A stretch of 64,000 nucleotides of DNA from Demequina sp. NBRC 110053. Its GTDB lineage: Bacteria; Actinomycetota; Actinomycetes; Actinomycetales; Demequinaceae. Each line of letters begins with the position of its first letter. Positions within the stretch are counted from its first letter, which is position 1. The notes under the pieces are model-generated. The model made no database searches. It was given only the letters and a program-made list of their open reading frames with translations, and was not told the origin of the DNA. Where the stretch lies: contig NZ_BBRJ01000002.1 in NCBI RefSeq assembly GCF_002090095.1, forward strand, positions 1,798,817 through 1,862,816, in the 5' to 3' direction. This document shows, piece by piece, positions 3,221-43,076 of this stretch. The position numbers and the translations under genes are program-made.

Positions 3221-4231
3221 CTAGCTGGTGGCCAGCGCGCCGTCGGAGGAGAACACGAGGCCGACGGCCACCTCGCCCGAGGTGATCGCAGTCTTGGTCA
3301 GCGGGCCGCCGGCGTCGAGCGAGCGGAACTCCGCGACCTCGATGCCGTAGGTCTCCTCGAGGCCGGGCTGGCAGAACGGACGCTCGGGGCATTCCGGGGG
3401 GCCGCCGAGGACGATGCCACCGCAGGCCTCGGCGAGCTCGCTCAGGGTGGTCACGCCGTACTGGTCGATGAAGCCCTGCGTCACGGCGAAGGCGTTCTGG
3501 TCCTGTGCGTCGGCGGGGCTGCCGACGGCGAGACCGTTCTCCTCGGCGAGCGGCTCGAGCGCGGCCACCGTCTCGGAGATGTCGCCCGACGCGACGGCGG
3601 TCTCGACGTCGCCGTCGAGGAACTCCGCGAACGTCGCGGCGTACTCGGGGACGATGTCGATCTCCCCACTCGTGAGCGCGGGCAGGTACGTCTCGCGGTT
3701 GCCGATCTCGCGAACCTCGGTGTCGTAGCCTGCCTCGTCGAGCACCTCCGCGTAGATCTCCGCGAGCGTGATGTTCTCGGAGAAGTTCGCCGCGCCGATG
3801 GTCAGCGAACCTGCGCCGTCGGCGCCGTCGATGGTGAGCCCCGCCTGGTCGACCCAGGCCTCGGCGACCTCCTCTGAGGTCTGACGGTCGATGTCGACCG
3901 ACTTGTTGAGCTCGATGAGCGTCTCGGTGTCGAGCGCTGCCGACACCGCGTCGAGGGCCGCGATCACGTCCTCGCTCGCGGCGTCAGCGTTGAGAGCGGG
4001 GATGATGTTGTCCGAGGCCTGGAGCTGCTGGTCGTCCTCGAGGACCACGAGCTGCTCGCCGGGCACTGGCAGGCACTCCTGAGCCATGGCGGACTCGCCT
4101 CCCGTGGCGCCGCCGGTGGCGCCCATGGTCGGCTCGTCCGATCCGTCGGTGCCGGGATCGGAGCTGGAACAGCCTGCCAGCGTCAGGGCGGCGATCGAGA
4201 ATGCCGCCAGGGTCAGGTTGCGAGTGCGCAT
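3221..4231 (-). CDS. Compatible-solute (glycine betaine/choline type) binding lipoprotein, apparently circularly permuted
   Basis: A 336-aa lipoprotein that should capture a quaternary-amine osmoprotectant for the neighbouring permeases. The lipobox LTLAGC places the lipidated Cys at residue 21. In OpuBC/OsmF-type proteins the mature chain starts with an IGS-x-NFTE-type strand and ends with LVVLEDD..., a helix ELN and a VD-rich tail. Here that usual C-terminal segment comes first (LVVLEDDQQLQASDNIIPAL at 61-80, then LIELNKSVDIDRQT and EAWVDQAGL to about 132). The usual N-terminal lobe follows (SLTIGAANFSENITLAEIY from 142), and the protein ends at GLVFSSDGALATS. The two lobes are complete but in permuted order. 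A six-residue GGPPEC/PERPFC stretch carries cysteines. Permease genes lie upstream on the same strand. The permutation is inferred from remembered family order, not from an alignment. Confidence 0.87.
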   Translation of the reverse strand: MRTRNLTLAAFSIAALTLAGCSSSDPGTDGSDEPTMGATGGATGGESAMAQECLPVPGEQLVVLEDDQQLQASDNIIPALNADAASEDVIAALDAVSAALDTETLIELNKSVDIDRQTSEEVAEAWVDQAGLTIDGADGAGSLTIGAANFSENITLAEIYAEVLDEAGYDTEVREIGNRETYLPALTSGEIDIVPEYAATFAEFLDGDVETAVASGDISETVAALEPLAEENGLAVGSPADAQDQNAFAVTQGFIDQYGVTTLSELAEACGGIVLGGPPECPERPFCQPGLEETYGIEVAEFRSLDAGGPLTKTAITSGEVAVGLVFSSDGALATS

Positions 4232-4384: not shown

Positions 4385-5116
4385 TCAGGCCGACGCGGCG
4401 GCCGCGTCGCGCAGCGGAGCGGCGGTCACCGCCTTCTGGAGCCTGGCCATGATCGCATCCGTCGTGAGCGCGAGCGCGGCGACCAGGATCGCTCCCGCGA
4501 GCACCTCGCCGTAGCGCTGCGTCGCGAGCCCCGTGTTGATGATCACGCCCAGTCCACCGCCGGCGACGAGCGCGGCGAGCGGCACCGTCGCGACCGTCTG
4601 GACGGTCGCGGTGCGCAGGCCGGCCGCGATGAGCGGCACGGCGAGCGGGAGCTCGACCCGCGTCGCCACCTGGAACCGCGTGAGTCCCTGTCCGAGCGCG
4701 GCCTCGCGCACGTCCTGGTCGACCTCGGCCATGCCCGTGAAGGTGTTCGACAGGATGGGCGGGAAGGCGAAGATGGCCGCGGCGAGGATCACGGCCTGGT
4801 TGCCGAACCCGATCGCCGATGCGGCGAACAGGGTGAGGAGCGCGAGCGTAGGCACCGCACGGGTCAGGTTGGAGGTCACGACGGTGACGCCACCCCCGCG
4901 CCGCCGATGCCCGAGCCAGACGCCCAGGGGCAGCGCCACGAGCACCGCGAGCGACACGGCGGCGAAGCTCATCCACAGATGCTCGAGGGTGAGGCCGATG
5001 ATCGAGTCCTGCGCGAATCGCCAACCGCCGTCATACGTCGGCGTCGTGATGCCGTTCGCGCCGGTCCAGCTCTCGGGGTCGGTGAGATAGTCCCAGGCCT
5101 CGGAGATGGTGCTCAT
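4385..5116 (-). CDS. Osmoprotectant ABC transporter permease (OpuB/OsmW-like)
   Basis: A 243-aa inner-membrane permease. The ATG at 5116 overlaps the stop of the upstream permease (ATGA) and is preferred over a longer in-frame extension that would run inside that gene. Several hydrophobic helices surround the MetI-type EAA loop (VREAALGQGLTRFQVATRVELPLAVPLIAAG). The N-terminal segment with WRFAQDSIIGLTLEHL matches permeases of glycine-betaine/choline importers. It is the second of two dissimilar permeases and presumably forms a heterodimer with the upstream product. The binding protein follows 153 nt downstream. Confidence 0.92.
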   Translation of the reverse strand: MSTISEAWDYLTDPESWTGANGITTPTYDGGWRFAQDSIIGLTLEHLWMSFAAVSLAVLVALPLGVWLGHRRRGGGVTVVTSNLTRAVPTLALLTLFAASAIGFGNQAVILAAAIFAFPPILSNTFTGMAEVDQDVREAALGQGLTRFQVATRVELPLAVPLIAAGLRTATVQTVATVPLAALVAGGGLGVIINTGLATQRYGEVLAGAILVAALALTTDAIMARLQKAVTAAPLRDAAAASA

Positions 5117-5778
5117 GCGGCGGCCCTCCCGCGCGTCCACGGCGTCGCGAGGCGGCCCGCGAGGACCAGGATGAGGTCGAGGACCAGCGCGAGCGCGAGG
5201 CACAGCAGAGTCGCGGTCATGATCTGCGCGCGGTAGTCGGACTGCAGGCCGCGGAACATCAGCTGGCCCAGTCCGCCGTAGCCCACGACCACGCCCACGG
5301 TGACGAGCGCCACCGTGCTGACGGCGGCGATCCGCAGGCCAGCGATGATCGAGGGGAGCGCATTCGGGAGCTCGACCTGCAGCAGCAGCCGAGTGGGCTC
5401 GTACCCCAGGCCTCGCGCCGCATCGGTCACGTCGCGGTCGACCGACTGGAGACCCACGACGATGTTGCGCACGAGCACCAGCAGCGCATACGCGACCAGC
5501 CCGATGAGCACGGTGGTGCGGCCGATGCCGGTGAACGGGGCCAGCAGTCCGAACAGCGCGAACGACGGGATCGTGTACAGCACGCCGCTGACGCCGAGGA
5601 CCGGCCCCGACAGGGCGGGGACGCGCCGCGCGAGCACGGCGAGAGGGAAGGCGATGGCGATCGCGATCGCGAGCGCCTGCAGCGTGAGCGTGGTGTGGAT
5701 GACCAGCTGCTCGGAGACTTCATCCCAGTTGCGCTGGAGGTAGTCCAGCGAGAACCAGGGGTTGGCGGGCTCATCCAC
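5113..5778 (-). CDS. Osmoprotectant ABC transporter permease
   Basis: A 221-aa inner-membrane protein with about six hydrophobic helices and the EAA loop DVTDAARGLGYEPTRLLLQ, followed by VELPNALPSIIAGLRIAAV. It is the first gene of the minus-strand permease-permease-binding protein operon and starts 121 bp from the divergently transcribed ATPase gene, so one bidirectional promoter region can supply all four parts of the importer. Confidence 0.93.
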   Translation of the reverse strand: MDEPANPWFSLDYLQRNWDEVSEQLVIHTTLTLQALAIAIAIAFPLAVLARRVPALSGPVLGVSGVLYTIPSFALFGLLAPFTGIGRTTVLIGLVAYALLVLVRNIVVGLQSVDRDVTDAARGLGYEPTRLLLQVELPNALPSIIAGLRIAAVSTVALVTVGVVVGYGGLGQLMFRGLQSDYRAQIMTATLLCLALALVLDLILVLAGRLATPWTRGRAAA

Positions 5779-5899: not shown

Positions 5900-6652
5900 A
5901 TGGACCACGCTGGCATCGCCTTCGACCACGTGCGCAAGGAGTACCCCGACGGCACCGTCGCCGTGGAGGACCTCAGCCTTGAGGTCGTGCCCGGCGAGAT
6001 CCTGTGCCTGGTGGGCCCGTCCGGTTGCGGCAAGTCGACGACGTTGCGCATGGTCAATCGCCTGGTCGAACCCACCTCCGGCACCATCACCGTCGACGGG
6101 GCGGACGTGATGAGCCAGGACGCCGTGCAGCTGCGCCGGTCCATCGGCTACGTCATTCAGCACGTGGGCCTGTTCCCGCACCGCACCGTCGCCCAGAACG
6201 TCGCGACGGTGCCTGGCCTGCTCAAGTGGGACAAGCAGCGCACGCGAGCGCGCGGCGAGGAGCTGCTCGACCTCGTGGGGCTTCCTCACGACAAGTACGG
6301 GAGCCGGTACCCGCACGAGCTGTCGGGCGGCGAGCGTCAACGCGTCGGCGTGGCGCGGGCGCTCGCGGTCGAGCCGCCCGTGCTGCTCATGGACGAGCCG
6401 TTCGGCGCGGTCGACCCCCAGCGGCGCCGGAGCCTCCAGCAGGAGTTCAGGGACCTGCAGCGCAGCCTGGGGACCACGGTGATGATGGTGACCCACGACA
6501 TCCGCGAGGCGGTGATCCTCGCTGATCGCATCGCGGTGTTCTCGCAGGGCGGCGTGCTCGAGCAGCTCGGCACGTCGGAGGACGTGAGCGAGAACCCTGC
6601 CAACGCGTTCGTCGAGGATTTCCTGGCGGACTTCGGCGCGCTCCGAGACTAG
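5900..6652 (+). CDS. Osmoprotectant ABC transporter ATP-binding protein
   Basis: A 250-aa cytosolic ATPase that should power the two permeases encoded divergently. Walker A is GPSGCGKST, the Q-loop is [15 protein letters not shown], the signature is [15 protein letters not shown], and Walker B is [12 protein letters not shown], followed by the H-loop THD. It is of the OpuBA/ProV family but has no C-terminal CBS domains, unlike the second system's ATPase in this window. The ATG at 5900 is chosen because domain homology starts there; the longer open frame upstream crosses the divergent promoter. Confidence 0.93.
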
Positions 6653-42164: not shown

Positions 42165-43076
42165 TTACGCGGTGAGCGAGTCCACCCACTCCTGGTTCTC
42201 CGCGGCCCAGTCGGCCACGATCTGCTCGTAGTCGCCCTGGTCGGCGTCACGCAGCTGGTTCTCGAGGTCGTACAGCGCCTCGGCCTCCATGGTGAAGCCA
42301 CCGAACCACTCGGCGACCTGGGGGAACTCCTCGGAGAGGCCGGCGCGACCGTAGGTGACGATCTCCTCGGCCTCGCCCATGATCCCCTGCGGGTCCTCGA
42401 GGTTCTTGATGTCGTACGCGCCATAGGCCCAGTGCGGCTCCCACAGCGTCACGATGATGTTCTCGCCTGCAGAGGTGGCGGAGTCGAGCTCCGACAGCAT
42501 CGCGGGCGTGGACGAGGTGATGAACTCGTAGTCCGACAGTCCGTAGGCCTCGATGGCGCGCTCGGTGGCGCCGGTGAGTCCCGCGCCGGGCTCGATGCCG
42601 ACGATGCGGCCGCCCATCTCGTCCACGTACTCGGGAAGATCCTCGAGCGAGTCCACGGGGGCATCGGCGTTCACGGCGATGGTGAGCGCGGCGTTGTCGA
42701 ACCAGGCGCCCAGCTCCTCCATGTCGTCGCCGTACTCGTTGATGTACTCCTCGTGCGTCACGGGCAGCCAGACGTCGGTGACGATGTCGTAGTCGCCGTC
42801 GGCGACGCCCTGGAACACGACCGCAGGGTCCGCGTACTCGAGGGTGACGTCGTAGCCCTCGTTCTCGAGGACGTGCTGCCACACGAGCGAGCTGGCGAGC
42901 GACTCGTCCCAGCCGTTGAAGACGGCCAGGGTGAGCTCGCCGCCTGCCTCGGTGGTCTCCTCGGAGCCACCGTCGGTGGCGCCGTCGGTGGGCTCCTCGT
43001 CGGCGGACGAGCAGCCGGCGAGCGCGAGGCCCGCGGCAGCGGTCACCGCGAAGGCGGTGGCGGAACGCTTGAACAT
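42165..43076 (-). CDS. proX: Glycine betaine-binding lipoprotein, OpuAC/ProX type
   Basis: A 303-aa lipoprotein (lipobox LALAGC) followed by an acidic Thr/Gly/Asp linker and a type-2 binding fold in the normal order, starting ELTLAVFNGWDESLASSLVW and with VFQGVADGDYDIVTDVWLP, VGIEPGAGLTGATERAIEAY and TLWEPHWAYG. The Trp residues in VFNGWDES, DVWLP and TLWEPHW are placed as in the aromatic box of betaine-binding proteins. The ATG at 43076 follows GAAAGGAAGAACC. It is the last gene of the proV-proW-proX operon. Confidence 0.93.
   Translation of the reverse strand: MFKRSATAFAVTAAAGLALAGCSSADEEPTDGATDGGSEETTEAGGELTLAVFNGWDESLASSLVWQHVLENEGYDVTLEYADPAVVFQGVADGDYDIVTDVWLPVTHEEYINEYGDDMEELGAWFDNAALTIAVNADAPVDSLEDLPEYVDEMGGRIVGIEPGAGLTGATERAIEAYGLSDYEFITSSTPAMLSELDSATSAGENIIVTLWEPHWAYGAYDIKNLEDPQGIMGEAEEIVTYGRAGLSEEFPQVAEWFGGFTMEAEALYDLENQLRDADQGDYEQIVADWAAENQEWVDSLTA

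Follow-up and report, generated by a model that had tools for sequence, protein, structure and literature searches.

Evidence for a complete circular permutation in an OsmF/OpuBC/EgtU-like binding lipoprotein of Demequina and other actinobacteria

The gene at 3221..4231 of the window (the whole 64,000-nucleotide stretch of Demequina sp. NBRC 110053 DNA that we analyzed) codes for a binding lipoprotein in which the segment that ends related proteins appears to lie at the start. An earlier note, made from the sequence alone, had read this as a circular permutation relative to the usual Opu/Osm order. The locus thus raises the question of whether the chain is a genuine permutant or the product of truncation, fusion or error, and, if genuine, where it was cut, how widespread the arrangement is and what it might do to a membrane-tethered, two-lobed protein. 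The features of the gene, all on the reverse strand, are as follows.

3221..4231, reverse: permuted solute-binding lipoprotein, 336 aa (intact ORF; doubled profile; 151 ORFs of the same order, from redundant loci)
4169..4231, reverse: signal peptide and lipobox LAGC with lipidated Cys21, residues 1-21 (read from the sequence)
4076..4168, reverse: low-complexity tether, residues 22-52 (read from the sequence; gappy and variable in alignment A1)
4073..4075, reverse: Cys53, permuted-specific, directly ahead of segment B (65/65 permuted, 0/55 normal)
3833..4057, reverse: segment B, residues 59-133 (profile positions 201-274 at residues 59-132; ProX 201-273)
3812..3832, reverse: short junction, residues 134-140, between the two matched stretches
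3224..3811, reverse: segment A, residues 141-336 (profile positions 2-200 at residues 141-335)
3422..3424, reverse: Cys270, permuted-specific, in lobe 2 (65/65 permuted, 0/55 normal)
3371..3391, reverse: Cys281...Cys287 pair, common to most normal-order relatives (64/65 permuted, 47/55 normal)

Cys21 is invariant in the same alignment (A1). Directly downstream of the gene, on the opposite strand, lies a phosphatidate phosphatase APP1-like gene (PF09949; 2101-3147).

Segment order and completeness of the chain

Searches of the PDB with phmmer matched residues 4-190 of Archaeoglobus fulgidus ProX to query residues 139-327 and ProX residues 201-273 to query residues 61-132; OsmF and EgtUC are likewise matched in swapped order. 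The match to Pfam PF04069 is split into two stretches (140.8 bits), as is that to the NCBIfam OsmF model, and the score against the OsmF equivalog (NF049931) is 71.6 bits, below its curated cut-off of 400. Using a profile of normal order built from 55 actinobacterial relatives, we recovered two domains, profile positions 201-274 at residues 59-132 followed by positions 2-200 at residues 141-335, whereas the same profile written twice gives one continuous domain of 350.7 bits spanning positions 201-476. In a rotation scan of the mature chain, the best score (347.5 bits, against 256.3 bits for the native order) was obtained with a new start at residues 134-140; two normal-order control proteins score best unrotated. 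The unbroken domain on the doubled profile, together with the rotation optimum, establishes that the permutation is complete, with almost nothing lost between profile positions 200 and 201. Such a swap far exceeds what chance would give, and it is found again in independent genomes.

In terms of its normal relatives, segment B runs from the end of lobe 2 across hinge strand 2 and then covers the C-terminal part of lobe 1, and segment A, which terminates in SSDGALATS, begins with the start of lobe 1, continues with hinge strand 1 and takes in most of lobe 2; the junction links the old C terminus to the old N terminus. The protein shows homology to PF04069 proteins of the OsmF-OpuBC-EgtU group (cluster F-III) over the whole domain but lacks their linear order. 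With B ahead of A, it is a permuted variant of the cluster F-III binding proteins rather than an ordinary member. We assign a probability of roughly 0.85 to the reading that it is an OsmF/OpuBC/EgtU-like lipoprotein and a complete circular permutant, with the last ~74 residues placed first, which serves the adjacent ABC importer.

An assembly error, frameshift or chimera can safely be dismissed: although broken copies occur in a few fragmented draft genomes, nothing at this locus points to such a fault, the same order recurs in 65 non-redundant proteins of many independent genomes, and the gene is under purifying selection. Hardly more credible is a linear protein whose C-terminal tail was lost and to whose N terminus an unrelated domain was added. 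It is true that the best stretch in a linear search is confined to the large segment, but the 74 N-terminal residues that make up segment B align to the missing tail with complete coverage (80.9 bits), the doubled-profile alignment refutes a separate extra domain and the predicted structure (see below) is a single confident fold.

The earlier note's central claim is thus borne out, including its prediction that a single alignment would require the sequence to be shifted. Its boundaries (residues 61-132, a second part from residue 142 and an end at GLVFSSDGALA) are correct to within a few residues, and it was right that both parts are complete and that the intact ORF reflects neither truncation nor frameshift; the case that it named as fatal, with residues 50-135 forming an unrelated domain and the C terminus missing, is excluded by the alignment of the N-terminal residues to that tail. 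More generally, linear domain searches report just part of such permuted proteins.

Predicted fold, position of the cut and a co-gained cysteine pair

Structure prediction, which the earlier note had proposed as a check, agreed with the permutation. The AlphaFold2 model built with 55 permuted homologues (alignment A2) is confident over residues 47-336 (pLDDT 96.1, pTM 0.91), with segment B forming regular strands and helices, the input being permuted sequences only and such models tending to reproduce the family fold. A single-sequence model was set aside (pLDDT 37). The elements expected of a two-lobed α/β fold are present in the predicted structure, and both strands of its hinge can be placed by mapping to EgtUC (see below). 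Its best Foldseek matches are ProX, EgtUC, OpuBC and their relatives, over ~200 aligned columns, a length explained by a sequential aligner facing a permutation.

To locate the cut, we used EgtUC, in which lobe D1 consists of residues 233-331 and 445-506, lobe D2 of residues 341-432 and the hinge of two strands of ~10 residues between the lobes (PMC9732360). A constant offset of 229 between the query and EgtUC fits the phmmer alignment and was checked on the EgtUC cage residues F293, Y341, Y419 and Y443. By this mapping, the end and the new start of the permuted chain both correspond to approximately EgtUC 428/429. The permutation point, which the earlier note had placed at a boundary between the two halves, is therefore not midway between the lobes; it coincides with the end of lobe 2, a few residues ahead of hinge strand 2. 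The same mapping suggests that both hinge strands are intact. A cut at this position would shift both termini, and hence the lipid anchor, from lobe 1 to lobe 2.

The earlier reading overlooked a pair of cysteines gained with the permutation. A cysteine about eight residues ahead of segment B (C53 here) and C270 are each present in all 65 non-redundant permuted proteins; C270 occurs in none of the 55 normal-order relatives, and none of these 55 has a cysteine in the link between A and B. Apart from the cysteines, the criterion used picked out just two positions that distinguish permuted from normal chains, G237 and G58. C281 and C287, in contrast to the gained pair, are found in both groups, where one never occurs without the other. 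In the AlphaFold2 model, DSSP assigns isolated bridges at residue 270 and close to residue 51, which is consistent with C53 and C270 being neighbors. This observation, together with the conservation pattern, suggests that a C53-C270 disulfide probably pins the new N-terminal stretch to lobe 2.

A strongly divergent permuted copy (L169:2938-4017, genome G472) has lost C281/C287 and kept C53/C270. No importer genes were detected near it; this binding protein may be an orphan and may have acquired a new role.

Distribution, origin and other natural permutants

A genome scan recovered the permuted form from Demequina, Cellulomonas, Actinotalea, Geodermatophilus, Blastococcus, Sanguibacter, Myceligenerans, Catellatospora and others, with a cut common to Demequina, Cellulomonas, Geodermatophilaceae, Micromonosporaceae and further lineages. 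Among whole genomes sampled across the class, 16 of 394 carry it, each with a single match; the order-level sample gave 41 of 297 genomes, and the phylum sample held no permuted form outside the class. In one family (f50), which the tree joins to Catellatospora, 78 of 101 genomes have it. Match scores are bimodal, corresponding to either a full-length permuted protein or the large segment only, and permuted and normal orthologues are ~50% identical over that segment.

In a tree of 120 binding proteins with A and B in a common register, the permuted chains group in a single clade (SH-aLRT 100), as they do in a more careful tree of 84 (100/100) and with segment A alone (98). The neighboring permeases independently place the permuted loci in one clade (support 98). 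Since the archaeal, proteobacterial and Firmicute structures in the PDB are all of the A-B order, the permuted state is derived. The permutation arose once, long ago, and is old and clade wide in actinobacteria. Two families (f27 and f44) hold both permuted and normal forms, so the gene has been lost, replaced or transferred between families. Within Demequina, dN/dS values of 0.12-0.28 against relatives, by a simple counting estimate, show purifying selection. The genome search thus upholds the suggestion of a family-level rearrangement rather than a unique one, with the same cut across many genera; the earlier note's mention of similar chains in other Micrococcales was apt as to a family-level origin but too narrow, as the permuted form reaches well beyond that group.

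An alternative source for the N-terminal segment is the tail of another paralogue, fused to give the same architecture. Segment B alone (79 columns) does not resolve the permuted clade, with two changes needed, and the ORF scan (151 B-A and 55 A-B architectures, from redundant loci) contained no B-A-B or A-B-A duplication intermediate, both of which would suit such a fusion. However, what B shows is low resolution and not conflict, segment A and the combined alignment give the same single clade, and the permuted genomes of the class sample have one match apiece; we therefore consider this route unlikely. For the circular permutation of a single gene, no relic of segment A or B was found downstream of permuted genes either, so that, with no intermediate at hand, its path is a guess: the mature coding region was likely tandemly duplicated internally in an actinobacterial ancestor, with subsequent loss of the outer segments. 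The operon would afterwards have spread vertically and perhaps also laterally.

Several loci met in these surveys deserve separate mention. A contig labeled as a Spirochaetaceae metagenome-assembled genome (L074:4194-5198) carries a typical actinobacterial permuted operon and clusters with Sporichthyaceae-like sequences; it is probably misbinned. In a Demequina relative (G027:C1:1400824-1401815), the permuted gene is split, with overlapping matches to query residues 1-284 and 275-334, which suggests a frameshift or sequencing error. Two normal-order proteins (L121 and L122, from G151 and G403) lie close to the permuted clade in the tree and could serve as an outgroup or as natural unpermuted controls.

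Natural permutants are known among binding proteins, and the present one is a separate event, in another subfamily and with another cut. Bacillus subtilis OpuAC (PDB 2b4l, 2b4m, 3chg and 5nxx) is also a natural circular permutant of the same Pfam family. We recognized this through the OpuAC-type protein at 42165-43076 of the window, among whose closest solved relatives both orders are represented: its residues 152-275 match 2b4l chain residues 8-131 and its residues 45-147 match 164-266, whereas it matches Lactococcus lactis OpuAC (3l6g) linearly, so that the B. subtilis protein is permuted relative to that of L. lactis. The linear match also confirms that this second protein, termed betaine binding in the earlier note, has the normal order. 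Permutation relations among betaine-binding proteins have been reported with CPSARST (PMC2395249). B. subtilis OpuAC belongs to another subfamily and has another cut in lobe 2, before an IxGIxPGxG strand, which by motif would fall at about residue 270/271 here; the present permutation is an event separate from it.

The second precedent is Treponema pallidum TpMglB-2 (Tp0684; "Type Ic / cluster Bc"), a naturally permuted, tethered lipoprotein that binds its ligand and closes, whose family is spread in spirochaetes and Gram-positives; binding and conformational data are published, and its authors speculated on tethering (PMC4990184). It differs in being a Type I sugar binder with another fold class and cut, and in needing a fourth crossover, whereas the family described here keeps two hinge strands; the matches of our protein are to cluster F and not to the Type I/cluster B sugar-binding fold. 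Within the open-access literature, our searches turned up no description of a permuted member of the OsmF/OpuBC/EgtU subfamily.

Importer context, ligand and possible consequences of the new topology

The remaining genes of the putative importer lie directly upstream.

4385..5116, reverse: permease 1 (BPD_transp_1), directly upstream of the binding-protein gene (Pfam PF00528; start by inspection)
5113..5778, reverse: permease 2 (BPD_transp_1) (Pfam PF00528; synteny)
5900..6652, forward: divergent ATPase gene, ProV/OpuCA-like (TIGR01186 proV, synteny; start by inspection)

The binding protein is thus encoded with cognate permeases and an ATPase, the latter scoring 304 bits against TIGR01186, below the cut-off of 326.6. 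The order divergent ATPase, permease 2, permease 1 and binding protein is the same around the permuted genes and most normal orthologues, with permease 1 in an identical position in both kinds of operon. This unchanged order suggests that the gene was apparently permuted in place, inside a working importer. Matches to PF04069 in the host genome comprise only the permuted protein and the OpuAC-type protein; besides the former, the genome yielded no binding protein of F-III type. The permuted protein belongs to the adjacent importer. On the same evidence, we rejected the notion of a redundant copy.

Both permuted and normal relatives largely conserve Y197, T200, N246, R284 and N75, and by this conservation of pocket positions the two forms probably share a ligand. 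The four-aromatic cage of quaternary-ammonium (betaine, choline or ergothioneine) binders is mostly missing: the A. fulgidus ProX cage residues Y63, Y111, Y190 and Y214 map to Y197, N246, F327 and D74/S73, so that one Tyr and one Phe remain. With three of the four cage tyrosines replaced, betaine binding is unsupported, and the "betaine-binding" label implied by the earlier note is likewise not supported for this protein. The ProX of Mycobacterium tuberculosis, which has no such cage either, has polyphenols as ligands and does not bind betaine, choline or carnitine (PMC5894108); this is a lead and no more.

The closest comparisons frame what has changed. OsmF, OpuBC, EgtUC and A. fulgidus ProX (cluster F-III, PF04069; type II two-lobed fold) are homologous across both segments, and the normal-order actinobacterial orthologues of this cluster have the same operon partners; relative to OsmF, OpuBC, EgtUC and ProX, the permuted protein differs in its order, in its termini, predicted to lie in lobe 2, in the extra cysteine pair and in missing most of the tyrosine cage. 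Along the chain, the lipid anchor would be followed by a short lobe 2 stretch, hinge strand 2, all of lobe 1 (the old C- and N-terminal parts joined by the short linker), hinge strand 1 and the rest of lobe 2. The permuted fold would still be a Venus flytrap, binding the ligand of its normal-order orthologues. Purifying selection and the conserved pocket are indirect signs that function may have been retained. In this arrangement, a Cys53-Cys270 disulfide could stand in for the lost covalent link, and the lipid tether would consequently pull on lobe 2 rather than lobe 1.

Why the arrangement persisted is a distinct question. It could be a frozen accident of neutral topology, the cysteines being just stabilizing and the side of the tether without consequence; we give this even odds, and it is compatible with the complete permutation of an importer-associated lipoprotein set out above, as it concerns persistence only. 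Function survives in many engineered permutants of other proteins, and the pocket residues and operon are unchanged, both as expected of neutrality, whereas the strict co-conservation of the cysteine pair with the permutation tells against it, though it shows compensation and not benefit. That the permutation was adaptive, with natural permutants of lipid-anchored binding proteins relocating the tether to whichever lobe is important for docking or motion and a C53-C270 disulfide here replacing the severed link, is a more speculative proposal that we hold tentatively. If it is true, there exists a clade-wide class of "tether-swapped, disulfide-stapled" binding proteins.

As a rule, natural circular permutations can be seen only in remote structural similarities. 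In this case, the two orders occur in close orthologues in the same operon, one branch apart, with a diagnostic cysteine pair gained. The two forms offer a clean natural experiment, which bears on how a binding protein with two lobes withstands being severed beside its hinge and on whether the identity of the membrane-tied lobe matters. The features that merit experimental work are the gained cysteines and the proposed relocation of the tether to lobe 2.
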